DNA of 64,000 bases. Origin: Prorocentrum cordatum. Taxonomy: Eukaryota > Sar > Dinophyceae > Prorocentrales > Prorocentraceae. This document shows positions 9,137 through 41,939 of the stretch, piece by piece (positions within the stretch are counted from its first letter, which is position 1; every line of letters starts with the position of its first letter). The stretch lies in contig CAUYUJ010014562.1 of the NCBI GenBank assembly GCA_963575745.1, forward strand, positions 260,123 through 324,122, read 5' to 3'. A program made the translations under genes and the position numbers. The notes beneath the pieces are model-generated. The model was not told the origin of the DNA. It worked only from the letters and a program-made list of their open reading frames with translations, and ran no database searches.

Positions 9137-10126
9137 AACAGCCGCTCTGTGAATGCGCATCGATGACTGGTGTTCGTCGGCCACCTTGGGGGGAAGAGGG
9201 AGACAGGTGTTTGGGGGGAGTGGTTGCGGCGAACACGATGCCCTGTAGGATGGCCTGTAGGATGGCCTCAGAAGGCGAACTGTTCCTCCGCGTTTTCCTC
9301 TCCTCTTCTCCTCCTTTTCCCTTGTCAGCCTGTTTCTTCTCTTTCTCCTGTTCGTCTCCGTCCTCGTCCTCCTGATCGTCCTCGTTCTTCTTTGGCTCCT
9401 CCTGTTTATTCTGGGCATTTCTCTTTCCTCCTTTTCTTTTTCGTTCTCTTGGCTCCCCATCCTCCTTTTTTATTTTCCTTCTCCTTCTTCTTTCCCATTC
9501 GTCGTGTTCGCTGATTGTGATTGTCTTGGTGCGCGAGGAGGATCATCAGGAATGCACTAGGAATGCGCATGCCTGTGAACGTTCGGGGTGCGTGCGCGCC
9601 ACCTGCGTCGCGCATGGTCGTTCGGAGAGCTCGGTTGCATTACATTACGTGTCGATGTTTGTTGCGAGCTCTTACGCAACTCTTCCCCAACGCGAGTTTC
9701 CTTGGGTCTCGCCTGTGGAATTCCGCCAAATATGCATGGTCGGGGCCGCGAGTTGGAACATCCAATTGCGCTGCCGCGCATATCCGCCACCGCGCTAGAG
9801 GAAGCGGCGAAGTGAGGCAGGTGCGCGGCAGGGCGTAGTGGAACTCTGGGTGGTTAGTTTGTACGAAATGAAAACATATCGAACTTGAGGCGAAACATGA
9901 ATGAGTGTGGGTTGTTCGGGCCTTATTGATGTTGTGTGTGGTGATTTTGGGCTTTCGTGGTGCTATCTTGAAGCTCTCGGCGTGTCTGGCCAGTGTGGCT
10001 GGGTGGTGCGTCAGAGGCGTCGTGGATTTTGGTTGGGCGCTCGTGGTTGGCGGCTTTGGGGCCTGAAAGAGGCAGTTTCGATGCCTTGTGACGCCTCTTG
10101 GAGGCGGTTGGGATCTTCTTGGGGGC
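9137..10126. other. Intergenic, pyrimidine-rich tract at 9280-9500
   Basis: No gene is supported. A C+T-rich stretch with irregular TCCTCT and TTCTTC motifs runs from about 9280 to 9500. The rest, up to the target-site duplication of element 1, shows no motif I recognise. Confidence 0.5.
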
Positions 10127-10131
10127 ACTTT
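10127..10131. repeat. Target-site duplication, left copy (ACTTT)
   Basis: ACTTT directly precedes the left LTR and the same five bases follow the right LTR at 26181-26185. Five bp is usual for Ty1/copia integration. Confidence 0.75.
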
Positions 10132-10397
10132 ACTTTAAGGGTAGCTCTTTGGGAGGTGTTATATAGGATCGGGAGTATAGCTCGCGCGCCGTTGCCTTTG
10201 GCTCAAGGCACGCGCGCCCTATTTGCCCGGACACTGCTGGTGTTCGCTATGTGATGGAAAGATCATTACATCGATCTTATCCTATCTTATGCGTCCACTC
10301 CCCATACTGAACTACCCCAGCATGACATTGGGCGCTATCTGCCATCCGCTTCCCATGGATTCGGATGCTATTCGACTTACCATAGTCACTTCAGACT
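10132..10397 (+). repeat. Element 1, left LTR (266 bp)
   Basis: It matches 25915-26180 over its full length with about 11 substitutions and no length difference. It starts ACTTTAAGGG and ends TTCAGACT. A spliced-leader-like stretch lies at 10189-10207, which would place the start of the transcript-derived (R) part there. Confidence 0.92.
10189..10207 (+). promoter_or_regulatory. Spliced-leader relic in left LTR of element 1
   Basis: CCGTTGCCTTTGGCTCAAG aligns to the dinoflagellate spliced leader CCGTAGCCATTTTGGCTCAAG with one substitution and two missing bases. The bases after it are GC, not the GT of a spliced-leader RNA donor. It is therefore read as a relic of a trans-spliced mRNA and not as a leader RNA gene. 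Confidence 0.7.
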
Positions 10398-10412
10398 TGG
10401 TAGCGGAGCTGG
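10398..10412 (+). promoter_or_regulatory. Primer-binding site of element 1
   Basis: TGGTAGCGGAGCTGG directly follows the left LTR. TGG is the complement of the tRNA CCA end, and TGGTAGC resembles the 3' end of eukaryotic initiator tRNA-Met. The first twelve bases are identical to the site in element 2 at 38307. Confidence 0.75.
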
Positions 10413-10422
10413 CCGCACTCTC

Positions 10423-12259
10423 GTGTGGTCAGCTCTTGCTCTTCTTATCCTCACGCTATCCGGCACGATCTTCGTGACCAACTACCACCCTGCGCCACCG
10501 CTCCAACTACATGTACGAGGATCAATTCAAGAGCAAGAAGCAACGGGAGAGGTACGACGTCTAGACAACAACATTGGTACCATATACGCTTCATCACTAC
10601 GCTACTACCAACCGCTCGGCAACGAGCCAAAAGCGCAGTACTTGAAGCAGAGGCGGGGGGACCCACAAGATAAAGCGCTTCGAAGACTTGACAAGGCGCT
10701 ACCCCAGCGCGGCAACGCGCCTGATAACCACCCATATCTTCACAGCCTTGGGCTGGTTATCTTCGCCATTATATGGTTTGCGCTGGGGGCAACAATCGGA
10801 CGCATGCGCCGAGGAGACAGCAGCACCGATGGGCAAACACATGGCCCATGCTGGGACCCTCAAGGCAACGTACCTTTCCGCGAGTACGTCTATGAGGTCA
10901 ACGCGTGGCTCAACGTCGCCAGCGGACGCATGACGCCACAGGCCCAAGCAGCCGCCACGCATCGCGGCCTGGGTGGCCTAGCGAGGACACTCGCCATGAG
11001 GATACCACCTGACATTAAACTACGGTGCGGACATCGATGGTGTCCACACCGACCCAGCAACCTACATCAGGTTCCTCTTAAGCATGAAGTTCGAACGCCT
11101 GGGCGAAGAGCGCCAGCTCACTTCAGGCGCACAACTCATCGACTTTCATGTGCCTCACGGAGAACGAATCGATGTAACCCTCACTCGGTTCGAGATGGCC
11201 CGTCTTGAGGCGCAGTCGGTGGGGTTTGACCTTCCCAGCTTCCAACTGCCCACTACTATCCGATTCCGCGCCCTAGGCGTCGGCAACCAGAGAGCCATGT
11301 AATCCTTGCAGCCACTTAACCACCAAATGCCCCGAACACAACAACAGCATGATGAGTTGTGCGAGAGGATGCGCTCGATAGGCCATTTGTCAGAACGGTC
11401 TCCTGGTAACATAGGATCAGTGTTTGGGAGGGGAAGGGGAACTGGTAGTGGAAATTTCTATGCTACCTTAACCACCGAAGATCAGCCTGGCAACGGGCCC
11501 GCAAGCAGATGGGCCGACGATCCTGGAGAGTCTACTGCCCTACTAACAGGGGATCGATCACAACCAAGCTGGGCAACCAGCCCTCCCCCTAGAGAACCTC
11601 AACCACACCGTTCCTTATGGGGGGAAGCGAATCCCCTAAACGACGGTGCATCCACCCACCTAGAAAATGACGGTTTCGACTCCGGCACCGACACCGACAC
11701 CATATCATCAGATGGTATTGAACCTTTAGACTGGTCAGATATCATGCGAATGGAAGGTGGCAGTCAGCGTGCCGAACACCTGTTCTGGTTATTTCAACAG
11801 GCAAAGCGGAGGTGGAGGAGGTTCACACGAAAGCCAGTGCGTCGTGTTAGGAGGAGGATACGGAGGAGCTTCAAAGGAAAAGGTAAAGGCAAATGGGGTC
11901 GCCGTAGGTTGAATGGACGAGGCATCTCGGCTTTCCTCCAGAGGCTCTCAGATGATCAGTATGATGAGATATTTTTCGGGGGGAAAGGCCGTGGTAAAGG
12001 CCGTAGAGATACCTCGGGCAAAGGTAAAGGTAGGCGGGGAAACCCGCGAGGTAGAGACGGCCAGATCCTAAAGTGCCATGAGTGTGATAGTACCGATCAT
12101 CTTGTAAAAGACTGTCCAGCGAAGGGAAATGGAAAGGGCAGATCGACCGAAGTCTATTTCGGCTCAAGTGAACCGGTTATTGAATATCTGAGCCTCCAAG
12201 ATTTTGAGGCCATGGAACAGATTTTTCACTTGGGCCAGCAGCATGGACAACTTGGATGA
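10423..12259 (+). pseudogene. gag: Element 1 gag, with CCHC zinc knuckle (frameshifted)
   Basis: The capsid-like part is readable across two frames: WDPQGNVPFREYVYEVNAWL to about 11030, then IRFLLSMKFERLGEER and VTLTRFEMARLEAQ from about 11069 to 11300. It continues in a third segment at 11306-12259. That segment is Gly/Arg/Lys-rich and ends in a single zinc knuckle, CHECDSTDHLVKDC (C-X2-C-X4-H-X4-C), near residue 255. Two hydrophobic segments in the 10423 frame (LALLILTLSGTIFV and LGLVIFAIIWFALGA) are unusual for gag and could be membrane-directing or out of frame. Gag packages the RNA; the knuckle is the expected RNA-binding part. Five or more GNRA hairpins lie inside. Confidence 0.75.
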
Positions 12260-13985
12260 GCTCGAGGCGTGCGGCCACGGACTGTACGCGTACTACCTCG
12301 AGTACCTCCGCAGATTTGTTCTCGGAAATATCGAGCTTACGCCTGTGGGGAATGGCGCGCTGGGAAACCAGCCCTTATCCTTCTTCGACTGGATGTTCGG
12401 TAGCCCAGGCAACATCATGGCCTACGAGAGCAGCGACGAGGATGTCACTGTTTAGGCCTCGCCTTCGGAGGTTGACTACAACCTTCGACATCAACCCGAA
12501 CTTATGCCTGGAAACAGGCCCACTCCAGTACATCCTCCAAATTTTGCCGATCTGATGGAATTAGAATTTCAAGCATTCACTGCGGGCGTGCCAGGGAACC
12601 CATACGTACCACCTGGCTCGCTCGAACCAGGCGAGTACGGACCGCGCGCGATACTGCAGACCCTCATGCAGATGCACGCTGCATTGGTCGTAGCGTATCC
12701 CGAGAGTCAAGGGAGTGTCGAAAGTGGCCAATGATGCTACAAGACACCGATGCCTGTGACGACTCGGAGCTAGTGCTGGCGGCCCTTACTCTCATCGACA
12801 GTGTGCACCCTGAGGACGTGCAACGACATGTGTGGCATTCCAGAGGGAGATGGCGCCAAGCTCTTGAAAGGGCCATCTCCATGCGTGGTCAGGCTCTTCC
12901 TCCGCCAGGATGGGGTCTCCAGGCGGCGGGATTACGGCCCGACCACACGGACATGCGAAATATTATCGGGCAGCCTACACATGACTATGATCATCCCGAG
13001 GCGCGCGCTATGCTCGGTAACGAGCCTGAGCCGACTACCGTACCGCCGACGCCGGGACAGCCAAGCGATGCTCAGACGCCTGTACAGCAGGGGAACCTGC
13101 CCGTCCCGGCTGGACCGATGACCGTCGTCATCGGCAACCCTATGTCAGAAGATGAAGAGGGTGATGGATGTGGGATGTGCGAGGACGAGACCACCATCCT
13201 CATGATGGAAGCCACTGGTGAAGACGAGGAGGTGGATTTCAGCCCCGACAGTCCTGACACACCACCACCTGCACAAGAGCCAATTGTGCCAGACTCCAGT
13301 CAGCAGGGAGACCTGCCTGCCCAAGATGCGCCGCCTGCGGCCCCGCAGGACCCCCTGCCGTTTCCTGCTCAGGCTGCGTCGGCGGCCTCATCTGATGAGC
13401 ATGCCAGGAGGTCTCGTTCGCATCCACGCCTTAGGGATGACCCTCACCCTCAAGCACGGCTCCCACGCGAATGGAGGCAAGCAGGCCCATCAGAGCATGC
13501 CGCTCGACGAGGGGGCCAGTTGCTCGCCTACAATGACCCGAGGCGTCAAACGGGGGAGCATTCTGCCTTTGGTAAAGGCAACCCAGCTTACAGGGATGCC
13601 CAAGGCAGGTCCATGCGGGGTGGCTACCAGCTCGCGACGAACATTCGTCGTCCTGAGATAGAGGTAGTACGGGCGCAGCTGCGAAATGTCATTGCGGTAC
13701 GCAAGCTACACAGGCCCAACGCAGTCTGTGGGCCGTGCTCAGAGCCACTCCAGGAGCACAGGCCTGGGTGTCCTGTAGGGCTCAACGAGGGCTTGAGCCC
13801 GAATAGAGGCGGCGCTCCTGCCAAGGAGGGTCATCCACCGTTGGTTCCGATGACTCAAGCAGAGATCGACGAGATCAACCGTCGTCTCGGAACAACGGCT
13901 CATAGGAGCCCGAAGGGACTTGTGCCTATGACCCAGGAAGAGAAAGATGCGCTCAATCGCCTTCCTGGAATGCGGGGGAACCCGC
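10614..13985 (+). repeat. GNRA hairpin family, copies 1-11 (gag and spacer)
   Basis: Each is a 5-bp stem GC-NN-G closed by a four-base loop and mirrored by C-N'N'-GC, followed by C. Positions, 5' arm and loop: 10614-10627 GCTCG/GCAA; 10707-10720 GCGCG/GCAA; 11485-11498 GCCTG/GCAA (one G-T pair); 11568-11581 GCTGG/GCAA; 12034-12047 GCGGG/GAAA; 12359-12372 GCTGG/GAAA; 12506-12519 GCCTG/GAAA; 13012-13025 GCTCG/GTAA; 13087-13100 GCAGG/GGAA; 13303-13316 GCAGG/GAGA; 13972-13985 GCGGG/GGAA. All loops fit GNRA. All but the copy at 12034 are followed by C, and all but the one at 11568 read Gly-Asn/Asp in the local frame. Confidence 0.93.
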
Positions 13986-14284
13986 CTGGCGTCTCCAGTC
14001 AGGCCCAACAGCCAGAAATGATGGATGACGATGAACAGAAGGCTCAGCGAGCCGCAGCAGATGCGCAGCGCAAACGAATAGCAGACGAACGCACCCGCGA
14101 GGCAACTCGCCACATGCTGCTGGAGTCCCAAAAGATCTATATGAAGGGGGCAAGGAAGCCCCCACTCCAACCGAAGGCCAAGAGCGAAACACCTGCACCC
14201 AGGACGCCTTCGGGGGAGAAACAGAACGTCGGCCCGCTCAGAGGAACTCGGGTTAGATGTGCAGATGGAGATTCCTCGCTCTGA
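12204..14284 (+). CDS. Element 1 spacer polyprotein region, Pro/Gln-rich, unrecognised
   Basis: Three frames succeed each other: 12204-12455, 12504-12734 and 12731-14284. The last gives 517 residues of low-complexity, acidic then Pro/Gln-rich sequence, with a repeated phrase VPMTQAEIDEINRRL / VPMTQEEKDALNRL near residues 375-415 and a Lys/Gln/Arg helical tail. No known domain is seen. It holds hairpins at 12359, 12506, 13012, 13087, 13303 and 13972, each adding a Gly-Asn/Asp-X-Pro peptide. It is probably a linker part of the gag-pol polyprotein. No function is proposed. Confidence 0.5.
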
Positions 14285-15950
14285 AACGCCGAGGTCACCG
14301 ACTAGAGCAACTCCGGCGCAGAGACCCGACCCTAGGCGACAACCTCAGGACTCTGTGGAAATCCGCAGACGACCGCCCAGCCGTAGCGGCTCTATCGCCG
14401 GCAAGGCCAAGGCTTTCGAGCGTGCAGGGTTTACCCCCACGCCGGCCTCGCCTGCGGCGGCACGCCCCAAGAGGTCTGAGGAAGGCGCTCTATCTAGGGG
14501 CGCCTGGGCGCCTACGATCAAGGGCAGCGCCAGCCGAGAAACACTGCGGGGAAACCCGTCAGGCGCTGCAGCTGCAGCATCCTCCTCCTCAGGAGCCGCA
14601 GCCTCTTCGGTGACAGAGGCTCCGTTGCGGGGAAACCCGCCAGAGGATAAGCTGCACCGCCCAGGGGGCACTTCCCTTACTAGCGGGAGTCAGTCTGTGA
14701 TCAATGATCGACGTGCCCTGCGGAACCTTCCACCGATACGCTCGGTGGATGAGGCATTCATGGAGAGCTGCAGCCAGAAAGGTATTGTTCCGAGAAGTAA
14801 TCATACACTCAAGCAGCTTAGCAAATGCCTCAACAGGATCTGCAGACACGCGCCTGACAGACCACACAATGCCGTGTGGAGCCTTGAGACATTCGACGAT
14901 CAGGATGGATGGATCAATCTCGACGAGCTCGTACGCGAGTTTCCGTGGCACAACGGACGCGCGAGACAGGGCGGGTATAACCCTAGACTGGATGAGGCCA
15001 AGATCATCGCCGAGACCTTCTACGACAGAGCGGTTGACCATATGGCTGCCATCATGATGGCGATCGTTCACGTCCGCGAGTCGGAGGGCGAGGAGGGGCA
15101 TCGTCTCCAGTTTAAGGTCTTGGCACGGGATTCTGGCAAAGCCGACATATTCATCCGTGCCTCGCAAGGGCACTCGTGGACGCTCAAGGCCCCGTGGTCG
15201 TTGTACAAGTACATTGTACTACACGACAATCCTGCCGGGAGACCGGCCCCATACCCCGAGGTTGCCATGCATGGCACGCGATGGACAGCCTTTGAGGGCA
15301 TCGTGTGGTATGGCCTCTCTTGTCGTCAAGAACACAACGCCAAGAAGGGAGGGGCAGGCCGATCACACATCCACTTTGTGCCGACGCTTCGTCGTCGCGG
15401 CGTGCAGAGTGGATGGGGCCCCGATTCCGAGATTGTTATCTTTGTGGGCTGGCATGAAGCCCTGAAGGACGGAATCGTATTTTGCTGGTCCGACAATGGG
15501 GTTCTCCGATCAGAAGGAAAGGATGGCATCAGTGAGCCGTATTATATTTCACACGTGGAAGAATTCGCCACGGGAAAGCAATGGCGGAACCCAGAATATA
15601 TGGGCAATCGCCTTACACGCGTCTCCACTGCCATAATGACGGCCCCGCACAGGTGGAACACTGTGGGCAGTGCTAGCATCAAGCACAGATGGTCTCTTGG
15701 CCGAGAGGCTAATGGGCCCCATACGGTTCATGTTCAAAGAGAGGTAGGGGACCATTACAGCCCAACAGTGCTGGGAAACCAGCCCGAGATCCACCAGATC
15801 CTTATGATCAACGAGAGTGAGGCAGGAAGCGCGGCTCCAAGCCGTGCTCCAAGCCAAGGGCCTAGTGCCATATCTTGGCAGGTCCTCAGCACCTCAGATC
15901 TGGATCAGATCACGGCCGCTCTAAATCCTGAGCAACGGTGGAACAGTTAG
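14259..15950 (+). CDS. Element 1 ORF with KptA/Tpt1-type RNA 2'-phosphotransferase domain
   Basis: The frame is 563 residues; about 180-430 match the KptA/Tpt1 family in order. The motifs are LSKCLNRICRHAPD (the family Arg-His pair), DGWINLDELV, LQFKV, IRASQGHSW (family I-R-A-x-Q-G-H-S), MHGTRWTAFEGI, GLS, RSHIHF, an SG turn (QSGWGPDSEIVIF), and DGIVFCWSDNGVLRSEG. These enzymes remove an internal 2'-phosphate from RNA using NAD+, classically after tRNA ligation. The arginine usually found just after the SG turn (SGMR) reads as glycine here, so activity is uncertain. The N-terminal 170 residues are Ser/Arg/Pro-rich and contain hairpins at 14546 and 14627. The domain is embedded between gag and protease with no sign of its own promoter, so it is probably part of the polyprotein. 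Confidence 0.8.
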   Translation: MQMEIPRSETPRSPTRATPAQRPDPRRQPQDSVEIRRRPPSRSGSIAGKAKAFERAGFTPTPASPAAARPKRSEEGALSRGAWAPTIKGSASRETLRGNPSGAAAAASSSSGAAASSVTEAPLRGNPPEDKLHRPGGTSLTSGSQSVINDRRALRNLPPIRSVDEAFMESCSQKGIVPRSNHTLKQLSKCLNRICRHAPDRPHNAVWSLETFDDQDGWINLDELVREFPWHNGRARQGGYNPRLDEAKIIAETFYDRAVDHMAAIMMAIVHVRESEGEEGHRLQFKVLARDSGKADIFIRASQGHSWTLKAPWSLYKYIVLHDNPAGRPAPYPEVAMHGTRWTAFEGIVWYGLSCRQEHNAKKGGAGRSHIHFVPTLRRRGVQSGWGPDSEIVIFVGWHEALKDGIVFCWSDNGVLRSEGKDGISEPYYISHVEEFATGKQWRNPEYMGNRLTRVSTAIMTAPHRWNTVGSASIKHRWSLGREANGPHTVHVQREVGDHYSPTVLGNQPEIHQILMINESEAGSAAPSRAPSQGPSAISWQVLSTSDLDQITAALNPEQRWNS

Positions 15951-17330
15951 CGGACAGAAAGTGCCAGCAAGAACCCTGGGCCGCAGGCCAGGGAGCTATG
16001 TCCGCTATGGTGACGCGTAACCGTCAGGCCATGCAGGGAAACCTGCCCGTGAATGGACTCAGAAACGATATGCCCGAACCGCAGGGAGACCCACAGACGT
16101 TCGGCCGCATCTTCGGAGAGACTGCTCGATTTGAGCAGATGCCAGGGAGCCCCTCGCATAGCATGCACACGCCGAGGGGCATGACCCCAGTGGCGATGCC
16201 ACCAGCGCAGTCTCCGTTTGGGACTCCTGGTCGATCTGCCACGAATGGCACTCTCATGGAGCGGATCGCTGCGGCCAGAGCTGAGCATGGTACAGCTCTT
16301 TTGAACATGATGCCACCTGGCACGCCAACGAGTCTGCAGGGAAACCTGCCCGGCACTCCAATACACCACCGACCTTTTGCTGGCCAAACTACTGCTGCTG
16401 GAGTGCCTGATGACTACCGTGCAAGGGTGGCAGCTGCGGTACAACAGGCGCAGAGTCACAACCTGCCCCACCCGAGCGGTCAGAGGTGGAGGCCAGCCTG
16501 GTCCTGGGAGCCAGAGGGTCCGAACCCACGTGACCCTGCTCGGCAGCGAGCCTTCATCCCGGCCTTCAATGCTCATCCGAGCATGGCTCCGGGCCAGAGG
16601 CCAGCGCCAGCACCAATGGATCCGCCACTGTACCCAGATGGATGGGTCTAGAGTCCCGAACAGATTTGTTCGCGACATGGCGGACCAGTTCCACAGCCTC
16701 ACGAATGTGCGCTGCAGTGATCAGCCCATGTATCCGCACATGGCTTTCATGCCTGCACCGGCAACGCCAGAGGTGGCCGTCCAGCCTACTGCCCATTCAA
16801 TATCATCAGGCAGTAGAGGAGTACCAGACTACATCAGGCAGACGTACCACACTCAACAGGCGTGCTTTAGGCGCAGGCAGGCAGTACAGAGCGCACGTGA
16901 CCAAGCACGTGCATCCGCACTTGAGGTCGCGAGGAACAGAGGCTCACCCATGCGAGGAAACTCGCCAGCCGTGTCGCCCGCAGCCTCCACAACGGCAGCT
17001 CCCCCAGCAGTGGTTGCCGTAGCACCAGAGGCACTGGCTCCCGCAGGAGATCCTCCAGCTGCTTTCCTGGGCTCCGAGTCAGTCCTGGAGCGGCAGCGGC
17101 GGGTGTACCCTAGGGCGGCAGATGTGGAAATTTGTAGTGGGATGGAAGACACCTGCGCGGTATGCCTCGAGGAGTTTCAACCGAGGGAGAGTATCTACCG
17201 CTTGAGGTGCAACCACCTGTTCCACGAGGAGTGCTGGAACTCGAATGTGGTGGGCCATGTTACGAATCTCAGCGAGAAGGAGATCCACAGCAACCAGTAT
17301 GTGCTATCTGCCGAGCGCCAGGCATCATAG
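15938..17330 (+). pseudogene. Element 1 linker with RING-H2 finger, frame broken
   Basis: Frames 15938-16651 and 16377-17330 are Pro/Gln/Met-rich linkers ending in a RING-H2 finger. The first six zinc ligands are in the 16377 frame (TCAVCLEEF ... LRCNHLFHEECW, from 17154). The last pair, VCAIC at about 17297-17311, is only in the overlapping 17162 frame. The finger therefore spans a frameshift between about 17237 and 17296. RING-H2 fingers usually recruit E2 enzymes for ubiquitin transfer; here that is inferred from ligand spacing alone. Hairpins lie at 16033, 16336 and 16952. Confidence 0.65.
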
Positions 17331-19106
17331 CGTCATCGTTTCCATGGACCGGCTCCTACACTCAGGCTCCCGAACAGGCAGCGAGGGAGCTGCGGGAGTT
17401 GAGGAGCATGGTGGAGGAGATGACAGCCAGCATGCTGGACAGGCAGACAGCACAGCCCCAGCAGCGGGGAAACCCGCCGGAGGATGTGAGGTCGCCGATG
17501 GAGACGGGATACGTCGACCAGCTTATCCCGATGACGGCGCCTCAGCAGGGAAACCTGCCTAACACTCCACCAGTGCCGATCCTTCCGACTCATTACGAGC
17601 CTGGAGTCGGGCAGGTGGCTCCTCCGATGTCTCCCCAGAGTGGGGGTGGGGCCGAGCTGCCACTGGACCCTGAACAGCTGCGAGAACTGCGTGTTCGCCA
17701 CTTCCAGACCCAGATGAACAATGCGCACACTACGTTCATGCTGGACGCCGATAATCCTGAGAGCGAGGTGTTTGATCTCTCAGACTCCTCAGTGGCGACA
17801 GCGGCAAGAGCAGTCAGGGCCGTCGAGAGCTCAGCAACGAACAATGAGTTCGACGAGTGGTTGCAATACAGGGGCCACCTTACGAATGAGGGATTGCAGG
17901 ACATCGCCCTTCATTCGTACTTGACGCTGACGCGACGTACTACCCGCGAACAGTACACGAGCATGCGTGATGAGTATGCCAATTGGCGGGAGGAACAGGG
18001 CACTCGAGCCCAGAATGTGTCTTACTTCCAGTACATCGACCTGGCACGTATGGCCGCAGGCAGGCCAGGTGCCAGTACGACGCGGGGAAACCCTCCAAGG
18101 AGTTCGACCGAACTGCGGGGAAACCCGCCAGACAGCGCAGCCGGCACGTCAGAGACAGTGCACATCAAGCAGCCTAGTAAGACCTTTCTTGAGGATGGTG
18201 GAAATTCAACCCTCATCGACGTGGGCTCGAAAATCAACTTAATGGGAGAAAATGCGAGCCGCAAGTTTGTCCAGGCTGCCGAGGCACACAATCGTCCTTA
18301 TCTGTTTGAACCTCGTTCTCGTTTGAACATCAACGGGGTAGGCGAGGGGTCGGCCCCAGCTGATACCGTGGGCACCTTCAGCATTGCCTGCGAGTACCAG
18401 GGATCGACCCAGCTCGACTCGTACAAGACAAATATTGTGTCAGGCTGTGGCAAGGACAGCTATCCTGGGCCTCGACAGTATGCAGGACAAACGCACTATT
18501 ATTGTGCTCGAGCGAGGCCAGGAGAAGCTGATATTCCCTGGGAAGGGACAGGTCAAGATGGAACTCCCCGAGGGCTCCAATATCATGCCGACAGCGAAGT
18601 TGCCATCAGGGCATCTGTCAATCAGGTGTGACCGATTTGGAGCCGCGGGGCAACCCGCCTCGAGCACAAGCACCACATCTTTCCAGGCGGCGCTGACAGT
18701 CGAGCCGACCCCTGCGCAAGAGCGCCAACAATTGCAGGGAAACCTGCCTAAGGGGTTGCTCGAGACACTCGCCAAAGCAACGATGAGAGGCGACAGCATC
18801 GATTATCTGGAGACGTTCGATTGCTTCGTAGCCAGGACACTGGCCCAGCATGGCGGACTTGTACCCATGGATGCGGTGCGGTCTCGCCGGAAGATAGTGA
18901 TGGGATACTCGAACCATGAGTTGCAGACGGTCAACGACGCAAGGTCGAAAGGCCTATTGAAGCAGCTGATGGACAATCCATCCATGCTGGCCACGTTTAT
19001 GGAGCAATCCGCCTCTGAGGCTAGCGCGCGCTGCAGCGCTGAGCTTCGGCATCTGAGGGAAGCCCAGATGCTGGCAGACGTTGCAGGCGCATCTTCTTTA
19101 TCTTGA
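17162..19106 (+). pseudogene. Element 1 aspartic protease region (frameshifted)
   Basis: The frame 17162-18631 begins with the end of the RING finger, has a long helical linker (ELRELRSMVEEM, then LREYLTLTRR-like sequence), and reaches a protease-like site, TLIDVGSKINLMG, with the Asp codon at 18218-18220. The usual D-T/S-G triplet reads D-V-G. The flap and end region is in the next frame: GLDSMQDKRTIIVLERGQEKLIF, then LPSGHLSIRCDRF, in 18384-19106. A frame change at about 18450 splits the enzyme. Retroelement proteases mature the polyprotein. The Val substitution and the frameshift both suggest loss of activity. Confidence 0.65.
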
Positions 19107-19145
19107 AGATGGCAGGGCGACGCTGCCCCCTCGTCGCCTTGCCTC

Positions 19146-21224
19146 ATGGCCGAAAGGCCAGGGGGTAACAAGGACAGCGGGGCAACCTTCCATAGTAAAA
19201 GAGCTTTCGTCATCGAAGATACGAGAGAGGCTTGCGCTGACCTCCGCATCCGAGGTTATATATGTGATCGCATTCCCCACAACGAGCTTATGACGACTGT
19301 GGGCGCAGATTACATGGGTGCGGTGATCAGTGGGGACTATATTCTAATATGGGTCAGTACCCCAGGTGACTGGTACGTACGAACCCCAGGAAAGAGAGTG
19401 GCCCCACACTGATCTCGCATTCAAAACCTGTTGACAAAAGCCAAGAAGCTCCGCATGAAAATCATAGTGTTTGGCCCCCCCAGGATACGTTTGGAAGTTA
19501 TCCCCAATACGTGATACTCTGGAAGATCTCAAGTTGACAGTGGTACGGATGCGGTTGTGTCATTTCGGTATCAGGTTTAATCTGCAAGACAATACACCGA
19601 GTGGTACCTATATGCAGGTAGCAACATCAATACCGATTAGCTCTAAGTTGTGGGCATGTACGTGCACATTGGCGATACCACAACATGTGTTGGATTGGTA
19701 CGGCCAAACGGTACGACATGCCGAATGGCGAGCTCAGACACGCATCACACTCATCCGTCACCTCAACGACAAAATCCTGGTAAGCAACACTACGCACGGA
19801 AACGTGCCGATATACTTGAACACCTATACACGCACGGATCACAACATCCATCACTATGCGACGACCAACAAAGGAGGACCGACATGGTCTGATGTCATCC
19901 GACGTGTAACACTCAACCTGGATACCAACTCGGTTATTCAGGATATCGCAGTAGCCGATCAACCCACAGGACATGATTGGCACGCACCACTACCTACAGG
20001 GGTTGCCAACCTCAGTACACGGATGTACTGGCAGCCCGAGGAACCGGTCATGCTCGGAAACGAGCCTACTCAATCACCACAGAAACCTAGACGCGTCATC
20101 ATAGATGACTGTCATTCTCCCCTCCCGACTCTGGAGATTGAAGCATGTACCCACTCATCAACGACGATGGGCACACAGACCGGTGAACAAGACGAGCAAG
20201 TCTTACCTACGGAGTCGCGTATCAAACAGAAGGAAAGGCTCAAAGCCGAAAAGGAGGCAGGCATCAAGCCTCGCCGCATCAAAAAGCACGTTGAAGACGG
20301 AAACGATGATTGCGGTGACGACTTGTCGGGACTCGGACAGGATCTTATGGCGACCTGGAGCACTGACGTCCCTGTTGAGCTGATAAGCTCAGACGAGGAT
20401 GATGACCTGTTCCTTGCCCTCCCCACATCTGTGCCCGACGCACACGCGGACATATATAGCATAGTAGCTACTCTATGCTATGGTCACAATAATTGCGTAG
20501 ATATGTTGGGCCCTGCGGAGGTGAGGGTGGTATTTCAGAGCTTGCCTTCTCAAGGGGTCTTTCCTCAGGAGGCAATTTAGACAAGACCACATGTGTCGAC
20601 CTGGGAGATCCCTCGGTGCAGCGAGCTGTAGATCATTACTTCGCAGTATGCCGCGTACGAGTAGCCATGCTACAGCCCAGTTGCCGCACCACAGGACCAC
20701 CATCCTGCTATAACTACAAAGCCAACCACAGCACTTGGGAACAGCATCATAAAGAAGATTTGCCACACATAACTTACTGTGGCAAAATAGCTGTTACTCA
20801 AGATAACGCACGGAGGTGGTGTATACGCGAACAACCGACAGGAACATGGGTGGATGATATTTCCCCACGGAAAGAACTTGCCAACCGACCACATATCACA
20901 ACCGTACACATCGACCAATGTGCGACGGGACTTAAAGATACGGCTGGTGACTACATCAAGAAGCCGACAAATATCACCAGCAACGACGAGACGATTCTTA
21001 AACCCTTTGAGCGACGCAAGTGCAACGGTCAGCATGTGCACGCACAACCGTGCAACAGAGAGCTTTCACTGGCACAAAAAACACTCGACGACTGCAGTCT
21101 GCCTTTGTGGAAGCCGTTTACTTGGCGAAAGCCATCGACACCACGCGCGGAGACGCGCCTACACGCACTGCGCATGCTTACCCTGCTGACCTTCCTGATC
21201 AAGCTGAGCCAGGAGAAGATATGA
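19146..21224 (+). pseudogene. Element 1 retroelement-specific module between protease and integrase
   Basis: The pieces are YILIWVSTPGDWYVRTPGKR (about 19335-19400), FGPPGYVWKLSPI (about 19470-19510), RLCHFGIRFN and PSGTYMQVATS (19550-19630) and HVLDWYGQT (about 19690). Similar strings occur in other dinoflagellate copia polyproteins as I remember them. Their layout, Gly-Pro-Pro followed by Cys-His/Arg-Phe-Gly, recalls the methyltransferase-like module seen elsewhere in this window. The remainder to 20580 is charged linker with a KQKERLKAEKEAG helix. The frame 20493-21224 is open but unrecognised. The fold assignment is tentative. Confidence 0.4.
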
Positions 21225-21910
21225 GACGCATCGGCGATCGTATCATCCCAAAAGTGGCTACATGCCCAGCGTGCATCGACAATGTCCGAAAGGACAGTCC
21301 CAGTCACAACAGAGATCCTACACAGTGTAAGTATCATGATTCTATCTCTGTATGCTGGCCATGTCCTGCATGCCAAAGGGACCTTACGAGAAGCAAGGGT
21401 GTTAAGAACCACCTCGACACTGAGCCCGGCAAATGTCGTTTTGCTGAGCCGTTCAAACCCCCAGATGATCATGATCCCGAGGGCACCAACGTGCCAGCTT
21501 GGTGGAAACCCTTACCCAAACCTGGGGAGGGCCAAGCTTCAGCATCGGGTGGCCGTCAAGGCGCTCGCGCCAGGCCACCGCGACCGCGAGCCTTTGGGAA
21601 CGCTGATCCTACATCTGGTGCCAGCAGTTACGATATGCTGCGAGACGCACCCGAGCGTGGAAACACGCCATCAGCGTCTCCAGGCGAGCCGCCACAAGTA
21701 GCGGCCCGCCGTGGTCGCCTGCAAGGCGTACCACCACCGCCAGATGCAGTTGACGAAGGAGACCGACTGCGGAGAGCCACAGGGGGTCCTCTTGCCTCCA
21801 CCGGCTCGGGGGCTCCACGACTGCCCGACTGGGCGAGATTTGACATCCAACTCAGTCTGCAATACCTCCGTAGTCATGAACCTCACGTAGTCAAAAAAGG
21901 AACTCCGTAA
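21020..21910 (+). CDS. Element 1 Cys/His region upstream of integrase
   Basis: The frame has Cys pairs CPACIDN, a CKYH, CPACQRDL and a following HLDTEPGKC. This could form one or two zinc sites. A Pro/Arg/Gly-rich linker follows, then WARFDIQLSLQYLR, the usual lead-in to the copia integrase zinc domain. One hairpin lies at 21655-21668 (RGNTP) and a degenerate one at 21482-21495. Confidence 0.5.
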   Translation: MQRSACARTTVQQRAFTGTKNTRRLQSAFVEAVYLAKAIDTTRGDAPTRTAHAYPADLPDQAEPGEDMRRIGDRIIPKVATCPACIDNVRKDSPSHNRDPTQCKYHDSISVCWPCPACQRDLTRSKGVKNHLDTEPGKCRFAEPFKPPDDHDPEGTNVPAWWKPLPKPGEGQASASGGRQGARARPPRPRAFGNADPTSGASSYDMLRDAPERGNTPSASPGEPPQVAARRGRLQGVPPPPDAVDEGDRLRRATGGPLASTGSGAPRLPDWARFDIQLSLQYLRSHEPHVVKKGTP

Positions 21911-23706
21911 ACTGCACTTGCTAGGAACCCAAGATGAGGCTGATCCTAGACAAAGTGGGACTGGACAACGTTCGACTAAATATGATCAAAGAAATCTGTG
22001 ACACATGTCGGGAATGTAGAGCATGGGGACGTCCAGGTAATTCTACGCTACCTTCCGTAAGCCTTCCTGGACATTGGCTTGACGAAGGCGAAGTAGATCG
22101 CATGTTTGACCAGAAACGAACCATATTTCATATTATGGACCGATGTATCCGCCCGGCAGCAGGCCAAGATATTTCTGATAGAGAACGTGACACTATACTC
22201 GACGCCTACCACTACTGCTGGATTGCCTATCATGGACCCTTCAAAGTCTTGTATTCAGATGGAGAAGGCGCCCTCAACAATGACACTGCCAAGGGCACGA
22301 TGGCGAACAAGGGTGCGACACTTCGTATCCGAGCGCCTGGCCAACACGGGACCTCGATCGAGTCACGCAACGGCATCCTTAGGGGCACTCTCCATATGAT
22401 TGAGGAAGAGCTGAATAGACACAACATCCCTGTTGTATTCACTAGAGTATTGGCTGAAGGCATCATCGTCACCAAAGCTTTCACGTTTTACAACGGAGTA
22501 TCTCCATACCAAGCACACACTGGGCGACAGCCCTCCTTTCTTCCTGACCTCGACACCCTTGACCTCCCTAAGGTGCCCGAGACGTCAGGCCACGAACGAG
22601 AACGCCGTGTGAGGGAAGTTAGCCTGGAAGCAATAACTCAAGCCACGGCGGTAGCTAAAACAAATCGTGCTCTCAGGGCTAAGACGGCCCCAGATGGTGC
22701 TCGCCTTTACTCAGCAGGGGACTCGGTCGACTATCACCGACCAACAGCCACTATGGACGACCATGGAGGCTGGAATGGCCCGTTTCCTGTGAGCCGTAAC
22801 GTGCCTGGGCGAGGACACGTCGTCGTCAAGGCAGGATCACGTGAGGTAATTGTAATGTACCCTGATGCTCGCCACACGCTATACATTGAATGCCTCCTTA
22901 CCAGGGAACTTGGCATGGACAACGTGGCCATGCAAACCGTCCTTACATATGTGGCACACCTTGGCGCAGGGAAACCTGCCAAAGTCTTTGGCTATATTCC
23001 AGACTACAATGGAAACTTCAATCTGTTGGACGACAGCAAGTTCCACCCGCGCGTACATCTTGCACCACAGTATCTCGTGCGAAATTATTCCCGAGTTGAA
23101 CGTGTAGTAGCCGTGAGACTGGCCAAGAGCGTGTCTAGTCTACCTGCAGTTAAGTACGCCACCGGGTCTACACTGATCCACTACGACAACGACGTCAACC
23201 CAGCCTTCCACTATTATGAGTGTGTGGGCACCGGCCTGAACATCTCTCAAATCACTGGTAGCACTCACTCCAGACTCATCCAGTGCCTGACGCCACACGT
23301 TCCTTCCTTAGGATTTCATGACGACCTTGCCAAGCATCAGCACTTGGGCACAACATCTGGAGAACATGACCAGCCTGGAGACAGGCCTCCACCAGACACC
23401 CCAGGTGCTTCATCACCAAGTGAAGGTTGCCTACCTACAATCTATGAAGAAAGCGAGGAACATGACATCGAGGCTATGATGATGGAAGCGTGGTACGATG
23501 AACTACGTATGGACCTTCATCCCACAACGGTTACCGACGATCATCTCTACTGCGTCCCAACAACTATGCTGCCCGACCAATGTGTTCTGGTCTCACCATC
23601 CGTGGACGAGGAAGATGACATAGTGTCGGAAACGCTCGGAGACGAGCCTGAACAACAAGAGCCCTGTCTTATCTCTCTATGCTCGACTACACCTGACGAG
23701 GGCTAG
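21885..23706 (+). CDS. Element 1 integrase
   Basis: The N-terminal zinc region has KLHLLGTQDE in one frame to about 21930, then ICDTCRECRAW in the 21934 frame; the second His of the HHCC finger is not evident. The catalytic core follows, with the acidic triad as HIMDRCIRP (Asp), YSDGEGALN (Asp) and TSIESRNGI (Glu). After it come GVSPYQAHTGRQPSFLPD, the usual copia motif downstream of the core, and a C-terminal small-barrel-like segment (YSAGDSVDYHR ... GWNGPFPV). Integrase inserts the cDNA copy into the genome. Hairpins at 22966, 23373 and 23634 fall in and after the C-terminal part. The frame is otherwise intact for 590 residues, longer than usual because of an acidic tail. Confidence 0.85.
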
Positions 23707-23760
23707 TCTCTTGACAGTGATGAACATGGTCCTTATGTTGAGTTATGTTTCACACCAGAA

Positions 23761-24399
23761 ATGTCAATGGTAGTGTTGGACCAGACCCAACTTGCACAGC
23801 TTGAGACTGACATGGTCGCAACGATGAGAGTATATGTATCATCAGCTGCTAAACACGCGGTGGTAGTCAAGGAAGACGACCTACTCACCAAAGCCGGTAT
23901 AGCAGCACACCCTAAAGAGGTTAGTGAGGCTTTGTACACCGAACTCAAGATCTGGCTTGATAACCGATGCTTCCAGATGTACGACCTATCTAAAGCTTCC
24001 AACATCATGACATCCAGATATGTACACAAGTGGAAGTTTGTGACGGTAGGTACCGGGAATGTTAAAACCATCCGTCTCAGACTTGTCCTTCGCGGATTCA
24101 TGGACACGGAGGCGTTTGATGTAGAAACCTTCTCAGGAATTGCTCGAAGACAGCCCCAGAGGCTCCTGGCAAGTGAGGCGGCATGTCATCCAGAATGGAT
24201 CTTAGCATCTATGGATATCGACAACGCGATCCTAAAAGGTCTGACCTATGAGGAACTTGCCCATGCCACCGGCGAGGAAACTCGCATGGTTTGCCTCACT
24301 CTTCCACCAGGAAGCGCCCAGGTGCTTCGTACACTACCAGGCTTCTCTTCTTACGATGAGCGTTCTCCCTCAAGCTTCGTGCGACCGCGCGAGCTATAG
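23761..24399 (+). pseudogene. Element 1 reverse transcriptase, fingers and first palm motif
   Basis: The protein has YVHKWKFV, then IRLRLVLRGFMD, then ILASMDIDNAILKG, matching the copia motif with the first catalytic Asp (usual form D-V-x-x-A-F-L). It goes on through TYEELAHATGEETR and LTLPPGS to a stop at 24397-24399. The next motif (SYDPEFEF) lies in a different frame from about 24390, so a frameshift splits the enzyme. Hairpin 24272-24285 overlaps the conserved GEETR codons. Confidence 0.8.
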
Positions 24400-25538
24400 G
24401 CCTCGCACCGACAAGTTACGATCCGGAGTTTGAATTCAGTCAAGATCTGTTAACGGCAAAACATGTCGACGATATCAACATGACAGGCCTAGAGAAAAAC
24501 GTAGATGACTATGTACAACGTGTCGAAAAGGTGTTTGGTAAATGCAAGCTCAACAAACATTATTATACGAACTGCGCTGTTCGCTACACCAAGAATGAAC
24601 AAGGGGATGTGATCATGGATCAGGGCGAGTACATTAAACAACTACGTCCTATCACACACCCTGAACTTACGGGAGCGGCGGCTGACGCCAAAGCTACCAA
24701 ACTCATCACCGACATGTTCGTTAGCCTGCGAGGAGCTCTCGCCTATGCCCTTCTCACTCAAGTCTGGCTCATGGTGTATGTGGTCTCTCTCCAGAAGATC
24801 CAAGAGCCCACCAACTTAGAAGTCAGACGACTGAATGCTGTGACGCGAAAGCTGATCAGCAGCCCGAAACGCATCACTTTCCCGCGGATGAAACCGACGA
24901 GCGAAGTAGACATACACAGTGATTCGGGGTATCGGAAGCTCACCGGGGAGGAAGACGATGAGACCAAGGGCTACGGCATCCGCGGGGCTAATGTACTGCG
25001 GCGAGGAAGCTCGCCTCAAGGCAAATCCGTCATCCACCTTTGCGACGGACTATGCAAATCACACCGATTGCAGGTGAGGTCCAGCTATGCCGCTGAGGCA
25101 CTTGCAGCTGCACACAACCTTGATGAATGCTACCCCACGGTCATCACTCTCCACGAGCTCAAGGCAGGGGCACTTACTCCACGACAACTACGTGATATGT
25201 GTGAAGTTGGAGGCCTAGCCACTAAGGTATCCCTTGCTATAGACGCTGAGTCTGTATACAAATCGCTATCCAGCAAAGATCTTAAGATACCGACGGAACG
25301 GACTTTGCTGGGACATATCAGCTGGATACGTGAGCTCATGGATATAGGTATAGTGCACAACGTGCAATGGTGTGATACTAGAGACATGACCGCAGATGGG
25401 CATACAAAGGGGAGTATCGATCGGGAGCTGCTTTTGGAGGTGATGTCAGGCACTCAGTCATTTAAGTATGACGTGAAGCAATTTGTTCCCTGTCGGGGTC
25501 CTGAGGACAGAAACGAGCCTAAGTCAAATCAGTTTTAG
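24390..25538 (+). pseudogene. Element 1 reverse transcriptase palm and RNase H
   Basis: The frame is open from about 24390 and reads SYDPEFEF then AKHVDDINMTG. HVDD at 24462-24473 stands where copia elements have Y/H/L-V-D-D. The connection domain follows. RNase H then shows VDIHSDSGY (first Asp), SSYAAEALAAA (Glu), SLAIDAESVYKSL (Asp) and TRDMTADGHTKG (last acidic residue). The frame ends TAG at 25536-25538. RT and RNase H copy the RNA and remove the template. Hairpin 25001-25014 with the exceptional GAAG loop lies in the variable LRRGSSPQG loop. Confidence 0.85.
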
Positions 25539-25914
25539 TCTGTCCTTGTTGCCCCCGCGGTCCAGTCTGCCAGCGCGGGCGCCTAATACAGAGGCGCCCT
25601 CCTAGTTGCTCGGAAACGAGCCTTACTTTTCACGCTTGGCAACGAGCCTGTTCAGATTGATTCAGGCTCTTGCTTTAATATCCTTTTGCTCGGGGAGGTA
25701 TAGCCTGTTTGGCTTACCTCTCGCCGGGCCGATATCCCTTTGATGTCCAAGGGGCTATTTTGCGTATGCGTGAAAATGCTTTGCGAGGAAACTCGCCTTA
25801 CAGTCTGGTGATAGGCCAGACTGTATTTATTGTTTTTCTTGCAAACAGTCGCGCGCGCGGCCTTTGTGGAGCCTAACGGCGGCGCGGCTATGCTCACCGT
25901 CTCCTCCCCTCCCG
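25539..25914 (+). other. Element 1 3' non-coding region, dense in stem-loops
   Basis: No frame is used after the RNase H stop. Besides three GNRA hairpins it holds other inverted repeats. GGGCGCC/GGCGCCC has a 9-base loop (25577-25599). GAGGTA/TACCTC has an inner AGCC/GGCT (25695-25720). TACAGTCTGG/CCAGACTGTA has a 7-base loop (25799-25825). The region just before the right LTR is pyrimidine-rich (CTCCTCCCCTCCC), not the purine tract expected for plus-strand priming. Confidence 0.75.
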
Positions 25915-26180
25915 ACTTTAAGGGTAGCTCTTTGGGAGATGTTATATAGGATCGGGAGTATAGCTCGTGCGCCGTTGCTTTTGGCTCAAGGCACGCGCGC
26001 CCTATTTGCCCGGACACTGCTGGTGTTCGCTATGTGCTGGAAAGACCATTACATCGATCTTATCCTATCTTATCCGTCCACTCCCCATACTGAACTACCC
26101 CAGCATGGCATTGGACGCTATCTGCCATCCGCTTCCCATGGAATCGGATGCTATTTGACTTACCATCGTCACTTCAGACT
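25915..26180 (+). repeat. Element 1, right LTR (266 bp)
   Basis: This is the counterpart of 10132-10397. It has the same start ACTTTAAGGG and end TTCAGACT, and is followed by the target duplication ACTTT at 26181-26185. The spliced-leader-like stretch here (25972-25990) keeps a fuller TTTTGGCTCAAG. Confidence 0.92.
25972..25990 (+). promoter_or_regulatory. Spliced-leader relic in right LTR of element 1
   Basis: CCGTTGCTTTTGGCTCAAG matches the leader CCGTAGCCATTTTGGCTCAAG with one substitution and a two-base loss. Its last twelve bases are identical to the leader 3' end. Confidence 0.72.
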
Positions 26181-26390
26181 ACTTTGACGCGTCTTGGGGA
26201 ACTCTTTGGGTGCATTCTGGGCCCCTTGGGACCTCTGGGAGGCCTCCTTCAGGCTATCTCCGCGCGGGAGGGGGTGCTCGATGTCGCCCCCCGTTGGCTC
26301 GCTGGCCGAGGGCGACACAGCGGGAATCTCAGCGGAATCAGTTTGCGCTTCAGGAAGGAGGAAAAACAGGAGTGGAAGAAAACGACGGCG

Positions 26391-26820
26391 GCTGGGCGCA
26401 GGGGGGAACCTTTGCGTCCGGGCCGGGGGTGGGAACCCATCCTCGGCCGAAACGGTGGCTGGGCGCAGGGGTGACCCCTTGCGTCCGGGCCGGGAGTGGT
26501 AACCCATCCTCGGCCGAATCGGAGGCAGGGGGGAACTCTTGCCTCCGGGCTGGCGGTGATAACCCATCGTCAGCCGAATCGGGCGCAGGGGTAACCCCTT
26601 GCGTCCGGGGTGGCGGTGGTGACCCATCGTCAACCGAATCGTACGCAGGGGGAAACCTTTGCGTCTGGGTTGGCGGTGGTGACCCATCTTTAGCCGAGTG
26701 GGGCGCAGGGGGGAACCCTTGCGTCCAGGGTGGCGGTGGTAACCCATCGTGAACCGAATCGGGCGCAGGGGTAACCCCTTGCGTCCGGGCCAGGGGTGGT
26801 CACCCACCCTCGGCCGAATC
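26391..26820. repeat. Tandem array of seven 60-bp units, hairpin-forming
   Basis: Units contain GGGCGCAGGGG, a CCCCTTGCGTCCGGG-like return arm, and GTAACCCATC(C/G)TC. The arms GGGCGCA and TGCGTCC pair around a G/C-rich loop. In the third unit the arms are GGAGGCA and TGCCTCC, which keeps pairing. The plus frame reads as a Gly-rich repeat protein, and the minus frame is also open; neither is taken as a gene. Confidence 0.85.
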
Positions 26821-27309
26821 GTTTTTTCGCGAATTGTCCATATATTCTGGGCGTTCGCTAGTGGGGGCAAGTGACGCCAATTTTTTTTGAGTTCCAGGGG
26901 ATCGGGAGAGCTCCAGGATGGAAAAAGCTCGAGTCGTTGATATCTAGTACAAATCAATATCGGTTTCCACCCTTTGGGACGCAGGTTGGAGTAATTGGAT
27001 GAGTTTTCACACGTGGTGTTTTGGGTAAATAAGGGGGAACTCACGCATGTGTGCTTTGAATTCCCAGGGAACGCGGAAACGGACGGAGCGAAAATCGCGT
27101 GGCAGAGCAAAACGAGGCAGACAACATACGTATTTGCGCATGGTTTCAGGGGACCACGCGTGCAACACGAAAATCAGCGAGGGGGATGAAGGGGGGGGAG
27201 CGCCGACAACGTCGACGCAGGAACCTCCAGAGATTGAAGCGAATAGCTTCAGATGGAATTGGTGTATATCAATGAGTAAGAAGCCGGCCAAAACGCAACA
27301 TATACAACA
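26821..27309. other. Intergenic, nothing recognised
   Basis: A mixed, less GC-rich stretch has short open frames on both strands but no motif, repeat or RNA feature that I can support. Confidence 0.4.
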
Positions 27310-38115: not shown

Positions 38116-38117
38116 TG

Positions 38118-38305
38118 TGGAAATATGACCAGTTTGAGCTTAAGCATCTCTTATGTTGCATGCATGCTTACTTGTTACACATTCGTGTGTGCGCACGTGT
38201 GTGCACATCTGCTGCTGTTTTGGCTCAAGGCGCCTTTCGACACCATGTCTCTCGCGAGAGAAAAGACATCCCTCGTTTTCGCCACTGACCGTCCTTGACG
38301 CGTCA
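38118..38305 (+). repeat. Element 2, left LTR (188 bp)
   Basis: It begins TGGAAATATGACC and ends GACGCGTCA, giving canonical TG...CA ends. If the preceding TG is included the LTR would start TGTGG, but the right copy has CCGTGG there. It contains a spliced-leader-like 12-mer at 38218-38229. Confidence 0.9.
38209..38229 (+). promoter_or_regulatory. Spliced-leader relic in left LTR of element 2
   Basis: The 21 bases ending TTTTGGCTCAAG align without gaps to the dinoflagellate spliced leader. The last twelve are identical and 16 of 21 match overall. The following bases are GCGCC, not a GT donor. Confidence 0.68.
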
Positions 38306-38306
38306 G

Positions 38307-38320
38307 TGGTAGCGGAGCGG
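38307..38320 (+). promoter_or_regulatory. Primer-binding site of element 2
   Basis: TGGTAGCGGAGCGG lies one base after the LTR. Its first twelve bases are identical to the element 1 site, implying the same or a closely related tRNA primer. Confidence 0.75.
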
Positions 38321-38356
38321 CACGGTTCTCCCCGACCGTCTCCAGTTGCCGCCGCC

Positions 38357-41919: not shown

Positions 41920-41939
41920 AATCAGGGACGAGTTGTGGT

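Follow-up and report, generated by a model that had tools for sequence, protein, structure and literature searches.

The dispersed packaging signals of RNA viruses, as presented in the available part of PMC6281560, are many short stem-loops with a common loop motif, which run through the coding genomic RNA in variable surroundings. Here, an array of short hairpins with a common loop class, for which these signals would be the nearest known parallel in function, is described for a long terminal repeat (LTR) retrotransposon of the Ty1/copia type, located at positions 10132-26180 of a 64,000-nucleotide stretch of DNA from the dinoflagellate Prorocentrum cordatum (assembly GCA_963575745.1, contig CAUYUJ010014562.1, positions 260,123 to 324,122 of the forward strand). 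The whole stretch is called the window in the following. Between the two LTRs, 42 hairpins of one kind are present, all of them on the coding (+) strand. In contrast to the viral signals, these belong to an LTR retrotransposon, represent about 40 copies of a nearly invariant 15-base unit, and have a protein partner that is at this stage a proposal.

The palindromic elements of Rickettsia, to the extent covered by the accessible part of PMC3733652, share with the array that they are palindromic, lie mostly in open reading frames (ORFs) and keep the frame. The array differs from them in having no common arm sequence, a single orientation and a restriction to one mobile element within the window. 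With Ty1/copia elements (PMC4974528, in part) the host element has in common the LTRs, the target duplication, a Gag-like knuckle and, tentatively, an integrase-like ORF ahead of the reverse transcriptase (RT). However, the cis sequences needed by Ty1 are placed near its ends in this part of the source, whereas here hairpins fill a 15.5-kb interior, which also encodes Tpt1 and RING domains.

No match to the Rfam covariance models was obtained at E up to 1 in 9900-26400, and no GTAG or CGTC tag of the repetitive extragenic palindrome (REP) type stands beside the palindrome, since the base counts of the flanks reveal only the C at base 15. The GNRA hairpins of structured RNAs share the loop class; here, the closing pair is always G-C, the stem has 5 bp and the hairpins are arrayed. 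No description of such a hairpin array was found in the open-access literature, a search outside of which most subscription papers lie.

The hairpin unit and its distribution

The unit comprises 15 bases, GC-NN-G-GNRA-C-N'N'-GC-C, which correspond to five pairs, a G-C-closed GNRA loop and a 3' C. All sites of the form GC-NN-G-loop-C-N'N'-GC were counted that have at least four Watson-Crick pairs (at most one broken) and a GNRA or near-GNRA loop, a rule that omits more decayed copies; all hairpin results come from a single copy of the element. As 39 of the 42 units have C at base 15, which follows the stem directly, the conserved unit is 15 bases long. Ten of the 15 positions are fixed, one of these as A or G, and the two inner pairs are free but complementary. 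Stems are perfect in 36 units, and among the 84 inner pairs 81 are Watson-Crick, two are G-U and one is a mismatch. The inner 5' arm takes 13 forms in the 42 units and 11 in the 36 perfect stems, and the loops are GAAA (21), GCAA (7), GAGA (5), GACA (2), GGAA (2), GCAG (2), GGGA (1), GTAA (1) and GAAG (1). Three further sites with two deviations (19177, 23110 and 25803) were left out, since such sites arise about two to three times per 15.5 kb by chance.

A preliminary description of this DNA had reported 34 copies of a 14-base hairpin with ten arm forms, confined to this element. The family is real, its hairpin pattern holds, and the positions given for the first and the last hairpin (10614 and 25783-25796) are confirmed, as is the confinement: outside the element, the window contains one perfect 14-base look-alike, at 29036 on the minus strand. 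The copies had been undercounted, and the conserved C at base 15, the fixed stem length of 5 bp and the bounding of the array by the LTRs had been missed.

Strict copies, with a perfect stem and a GNRA loop, number 32 on the plus strand and 0 on the minus strand of positions 10000-26200. In 200 dinucleotide shuffles of the plus strand, a control which the preliminary description had proposed, their mean is 0.005 and their maximum 1. On the minus strand between the LTRs no unit with zero or one deviation occurs. The 48 kb outside the element, most of which have an equal or higher GC content than the element itself, hold no full 15-base unit on either strand and three units with one deviation, all on the minus strand. 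An origin by chance or by GC-rich composition was therefore rejected and is left with practically no probability.

The same picture is obtained if only parts of the unit are used as anchors. If loop and inner pairs are ignored (GC..G....C..GC), 45 sites are found on the plus strand between the LTRs, 34 of them with a GNRA loop and 37 with both inner pairs Watson-Crick; among the 48 sites in the 48 kb outside, five have both inner pairs, and GNRA loops occur at none on the plus and four on the minus strand. Starting from GGNRAC, 32 of 76 sites on the plus strand between the LTRs extend by exactly four more pairs and none by five, compared to 0 of 31 on the minus strand; four or more further pairs are seen outside at 1 of 120 (plus) and 2 of 139 (minus) sites. 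The 5'-half GC..GGNRA is completed to a full stem in 32 of 46 cases (minus strand 0 of 10; outside 0 of 28 and 1 of 43) and the 3'-half GNRAC..GCC in 30 of 36 (minus strand 0 of 3; outside 0 of 3 and 0 of 12). If GNRA hairpins are counted irrespective of sequence, requiring 5 bp or more in the stem, 35 are present on the plus strand of 10000-26200, none of which reaches 6 bp. Such hairpins are absent from a second copia-like element in the window, and the other 38 kb outside have three on the plus and two on the minus strand. Since the second element lacks them, the hairpins are not a general need of copia-like elements.

The two arms covary. For the 45 sites of the frame GC..G....C..GC the covariation score is 0.481 versus a shuffled mean of 0.085, a value as high being reached in 0 of 500 shuffles, and it falls to at most 0.095 once the partner is slid by one to three columns. 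The score compares paralogous sites within one element copy rather than orthologous copies. Neither the pairs changed on both sides (2 versus 2.0 in shuffles) nor the further pair types (7 versus 9.0) exceed the shuffles, because only the two inner pairs vary and the three outer ones are fixed by the anchor. Arms made of A/T pairs only are found in one of 42 units, in comparison to 62 of 300 GCNNG sites elsewhere in the element (21%; p 0.0007).

Furthermore, the stem stops at five pairs, base -1 pairing with base 15 in one of 42 units. G at -1 and C at 15 tend toward mutual exclusion: three of the four units with G at -1 are the three without C at 15 (Fisher p 0.0003 for 42 units and 0.004 for the 40 that remain if the two units with two deviations are left out; the numbers are small). 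The shortage of G at -1 may in part reflect codon bias, as positions -4 and -7 are G-poor, too. Beyond the unit, flank identity is at background (0.271 for units with the same arm, 0.262 for units with different arms, 0.255 at random), and a longer repeated unit around the hairpin was rejected on this ground. The spacing of the hairpins is more even than random (p 0.017); a fixed period was rejected, as an accumulation of gaps of around 510 bases lacks significance (p 0.12) and no single periodicity is prominent (p 0.79). Folded in context, 28 of 32 strict copies are predicted to form, with a mean pair probability above 0.5.

Deviations from the 15-base rule are absent from 30 of the 42 units, ten have one and two have two. 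The LTR divergence of 0.0425 per site, or 0.021 per lineage, predicts 31.4, 9.1 and 1.3 units, respectively, under neutral decay. Because of this match, all units were probably perfect or nearly so when the element inserted, and ongoing selection in the present copy need not be invoked. The active lineage kept perfect units or had just made them, and the decay fit does not tell which. A constraint at the level of the nucleic acid is the only good reading of the anchor tests, the deviation counts and the pair and arm statistics.

Proposed recognition of the element RNA and competing explanations

We tentatively propose, at slightly short of an even chance, that the genomic RNA of this giant copia-type retrotransposon is studded with a single family of cis-acting recognition sites, namely the 42 units. 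On the assumption that the sense transcript serves as genomic RNA, it would contain every one of the hairpins. Each unit would fold into a stem of 5 bp, capped by a GNRA loop with a G-C closing pair and followed by an unpaired C on the 3' side, and one partner would read the loop, the closing pair and the five-pair ruler with its free 3' C, which would amount to about 40 binding events per RNA. One orientation, a strict boundary, varied but matched arms, background flanks, even spacing and predicted folding all speak for such a selected site.

The likeliest partner would be the element's own Gag, for which the ORF that encodes a basic stretch together with a CCHC knuckle is a candidate. Gag binding could single out the 16-kb RNA from other cellular mRNAs and compact it for packaging. 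Gag is a natural candidate because packaging of its own RNA needs such a mark and because dinoflagellate mRNAs are widely retroposed, as stated in the accessible part of PMC6050394. Nevertheless, Gag as partner together with a role in packaging is a guess, which we would give about half of the weight of recognition as such; recognition of the element RNA is the better supported part. A host RNA-binding factor acting in export or translation would be equally compatible with the sequence. In its widest form, the proposal would see the whole 15.5-kb coding RNA as an array of about 40 protein-binding hairpins with matched codon choice, serving as a self-recognition barcode for packaging or handling, and this we regard as doubtful though well conceivable. 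If true, a distributed signal across the genome of a retrotransposon would be at hand, like that proposed for RNA viruses, and an element would gain by telling its own RNA apart in a host that recycles its mRNAs into DNA on a wide scale.

Several observations weigh against the proposal of recognition sites. RNA helices drifting by compensation usually carry some G-U pairs, and almost none are present among the varied inner pairs (2 of 84); post-insertion decay could explain even these two and the one mismatch. The array is redundant, and a reason for selection to keep each of about 40 copies perfect is not evident. A pure RNA model does not predict the bias in reading frame (26 of 34 units in frame B, see below), all data come from a single element copy, and Gag as the partner is suggested by a sub-threshold knuckle. 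Compared with other places in the element, the native flanks give the hairpin no advantage (p 0.37), and compared with shuffled flanks a marginal one (p 0.06); selection on the flanks for exposure of the hairpin is thus unsupported. In Ty1, the most thoroughly studied retrotransposon of the copia type, a minimal element retains 380 nt from the 5' end and 357 nt from the 3' end, the cis sequences are located close to the ends, and the interior tolerates deletions of up to 5 kb (PMC4974528, in the part available).

The strongest competitor is a process that inserts or copies perfect mini-palindromes of 12 to 15 bases, which would be perfect because they are young and not because each of them is required, like the coding palindromes of Rickettsia; we consider it rather unlikely. 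The Rickettsia palindromic elements are much longer than the 15-base unit. A length of 15 bases, a multiple of three, preserves any reading frame, most units do lie in ORFs with 26 of 34 in one frame, pairing is near-strictly Watson-Crick with few G-U, and the fixed GC ends plus the C at base 15 could be a duplicated target GC(C). However, copying should preserve the arms, and the 36 perfect stems have 11 arm forms, each with its complement. If the arms were instead derived from the target, 21% A/T-only forms would be predicted, compared to the one in 42 observed. Units with the same arm share no similarity in their flanks, all have one orientation, no target duplication of 3 to 5 bases was detected (one 6-base match at offset 15 among the 42), and the surrounding 48 kb contain no unit on the plus and three on the minus strand with at most one deviation. 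The unit within the Tpt1 domain aligns ungapped, at its own place, to TPT1 of PDB 7yw3, where it lies in a loose linker, immediately downstream of a 7-residue gap. If such a process did exist, writing perfect mini-palindromes into genes, it would be equally unusual. With regard to the selected RNA fold claimed in the preliminary description, the arms indeed covary far above chance and the loop stays in one class, but a palindrome-generating process may also account for this and G-U pairs are fewer than stepwise compensatory drift would suggest, so that the claim stands in part.

A further explanation starts from the coding context. Most units lie within ORFs and encode xGNyP, and by a codon score, with a model trained on chosen long ORFs of the same element with the hairpins masked, 26 of 34 units are in the frame C12-GGN-RAC-2'1'G (frame B; p 3e-7 versus one in three). 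This would agree with a repeated peptide motif xGNyP, the hairpin being a by-product of its codons. Nevertheless, the codons of x and y follow the complement (R with P, A, S or T; L with E or Q; Q with L), a matching of bases to the partner codon which no peptide needs. Stem and loop are retained also in units that are read in other frames or lie downstream of the last long ORF, as is the 3' C with the exception of 24272. If frame-B ORFs are assigned by ORF length, 14 of the 15 units outside them have C at base 15; if the codon score is used, 7 of the 8 units not in frame B do. The reading frame of the unit in the Tpt1 domain is set by homology, and it still keeps the hairpin. Since the codons obey complementarity and off-frame as well as non-ORF units keep the hairpin, the xGNyP peptide is a consequence and not a cause; selection for the peptide is disfavoured as very improbable.

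Two explanations concern the RNA itself. GNRA loops are a known docking class, and they might dock into receptors within the same RNA, folding and compacting it without a protein partner. The halves of the 11-nt receptor, counted separately, are not abundant (CCTAAG three times and TATGG 15 times in 15.5 kb), and docking has no obvious need for a fixed G-C closing pair, a fixed stem end and a 3' C, which makes it improbable. The Tpt1/KptA family acts on RNA junctions, and as such a domain is encoded in the same element, the hairpins might be sites of RNA cleavage, repair or modification, e.g. with loops being cut and religated and the 2'-phosphate removed. No observation connects the hairpins with Tpt1, and the latter may be captured cargo; we give this idea hardly any credence.

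Whichever explanation holds, the motif GCNNGGNRACN'N'GCC is simple enough for searching every dinoflagellate genome. In a viral contig collection, protein scans with RT, integrase and RT-start found no relative of the element, with a sensitivity limited to close relatives, and scanned prokaryote genome contigs contained none at the sensitivity used. One exact 15-base unit is found in viral contigs at at least 120 loci, with at most two units each among those listed, and no relative among them.

The host element and its neighbourhood

Of the features of Ty1/copia elements, paired direct LTRs of 266 bp each and a target-site duplication, ACTTT on both sides, are present (Table 1). The 12 bases TGGTAGCGGAGC of the putative primer-binding site recur at 38307, behind the 5' LTR of the second element; we take them to resemble tRNA-iMet. 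Judging from the translations, the reading frames of the element are interrupted at several places. No Pfam or PDB match was obtained for the integrase-like ORF and no Pfam match at 0.01 for the ORF with the remaining RT. Both the designation RNase H and the orientation assigned to the RT parts come from inspection of the translations by eye. The hairpin at 24272-24286 may be native RT coding sequence and not a true member of the family, its stretch presumably being similar to other RTs. A Tpt1/KptA domain within a copia-type retrotransposon is an unusual cargo, and the RING-H2 ORF is possibly a captured ubiquitin ligase. Directly before the 3' LTR, positions 25900-25914 are pyrimidine-rich on the coding strand, where a purine-rich tract is expected.

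Table 1. Features of the retrotransposon and its hairpin units. Every hairpin row is based on the pattern count between the LTRs and on deviation scoring against the 15-base rule.
Feature	Position	Strand	Evidence or remark
Target-site duplication ACTTT, left copy	10127..10131	+	read from flanks
5' LTR	10132..10397	+	255/266 identical to 3' LTR (96%); carries TTTGGCTCAAG
Putative primer-binding site TGGTAGCGGAGC	10399..10410	+	1 base past 5' LTR
Hairpin, loop GCAA	10614..10628	+	0 deviations
Hairpin, loop GGGA	10653..10667	+	two deviations; may be chance
Hairpin, loop GCAA	10707..10721	+	
Hairpin, loop GACA	10981..10995	+	1 deviation
Gag-like ORF, Arg/Lys-rich stretch and CCHC zinc knuckle	11303..12256	+	translation; Pfam knuckle E 0.0006, below curated cut-off
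Hairpin, loop GCAA, one G-U	11485..11499	+	1 deviation
Hairpin, loop GCAA, coding frame C	11568..11582	+	
Hairpin, loop GAAA, base 15 = G	12034..12048	+	1 deviation
Hairpin, loop GAAA	12359..12373	+	
Hairpin, loop GAAA	12506..12520	+	
Hairpin, loop GTAA	13012..13026	+	
Hairpin, loop GGAA	13087..13101	+	
Hairpin, loop GAGA	13303..13317	+	
Hairpin, loop GGAA	13972..13986	+	
Hairpin, loop GCAA	14097..14111	+	
Hairpin, loop GAAA, one G-U	14546..14560	+	1 deviation
Hairpin, loop GAAA	14627..14641	+	
Tpt1/KptA RNA 2'-phosphotransferase domain	14811..15515	+	PF01885 E 9.6e-19; PDB 7yw3 E 3.1e-10
Hairpin, loop GAGA, within Tpt1 domain, frame A	15234..15248	+	
Hairpin, loop GAAA	15770..15784	+	
Hairpin, loop GAAA	16033..16047	+	
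ORF with RING-H2 finger	16311..17327	+	PF17123 E 1.4e-9
Hairpin, loop GAAA	16336..16350	+	
Hairpin, loop GCAG	16538..16552	+	1 deviation
Hairpin, loop GAAA	16952..16966	+	
Hairpin, loop GAAA	17464..17478	+	
Hairpin, loop GAAA	17545..17559	+	
Hairpin, loop GAAA, one mismatch	18082..18096	+	1 deviation
Hairpin, loop GAAA	18115..18129	+	
Hairpin, loop GCAA, frame A	18645..18659	+	
Hairpin, loop GAAA	18734..18748	+	
Hairpin, loop GACA	18831..18845	+	1 deviation
Hairpin, loop GAAA	19794..19808	+	
Hairpin, loop GAAA	20052..20066	+	
Hairpin, loop GAGA	21145..21159	+	
Hairpin, loop GAAA	21655..21669	+	
Integrase-like ORF, ahead of RT	21925..23703	+	weak tblastn similarity to pol region of second element, E 0.009
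Hairpin, loop GCAG	22151..22165	+	two deviations; may be chance
Hairpin, loop GAAA, frame A	22966..22980	+	
Hairpin, loop GAGA	23373..23387	+	
Hairpin, loop GAGA	23634..23648	+	
Start of copia-type RT	23707..24396	+	RVT_2 E 2.5e-6, 27.7 bits vs cut-off 31.6; frame broken
Hairpin, loop GAAA, within RT, frame C, base 15 = A	24272..24286	+	1 deviation
Remaining RT and RNase H-like ORF, different frame	24360..25535	+	translation, by eye
Hairpin, loop GAAG, sole unit with sixth pair	25001..25015	+	1 deviation
Hairpin, loop GAAA, 3' region without long ORF	25608..25622	+	
Hairpin, loop GCAA, one G-U, 3' region without long ORF	25634..25648	+	1 deviation
Hairpin, loop GAAA, 3' region without long ORF	25783..25797	+	
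3' LTR	25915..26180	+	
Target-site duplication ACTTT, right copy	26181..26185	+	

The second copia-like element spans positions 38117-47700, and its LTRs (38117-38306 and 47511-47700) are 98.4% identical. Repeats of 101 bp in tandem adjoin both of these LTRs on the outside. TTTGGCTCAAG is present in each of the four LTRs of the two elements (10197-10207, 25980-25990, 38219-38229 and 47613-47623), i.e. four matches in the window versus 0.04 expected by chance. The motif equals the 3' end of the spliced leader that is given for dinoflagellates in the part of PMC6050394 at hand, in keeping with a dinoflagellate host; a longer spliced-leader sequence has no match in the window with up to three mismatches. 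Reverse transcription may have brought the spliced leader into the LTRs, which may alternatively mimic it.

Beyond the 3' LTR of the hairpin-bearing element, a 60-bp tandem repeat occupies positions 26397-26821. Its unit contains a different hairpin-like stretch, GGGGGAAACCC, and is open on the minus strand.

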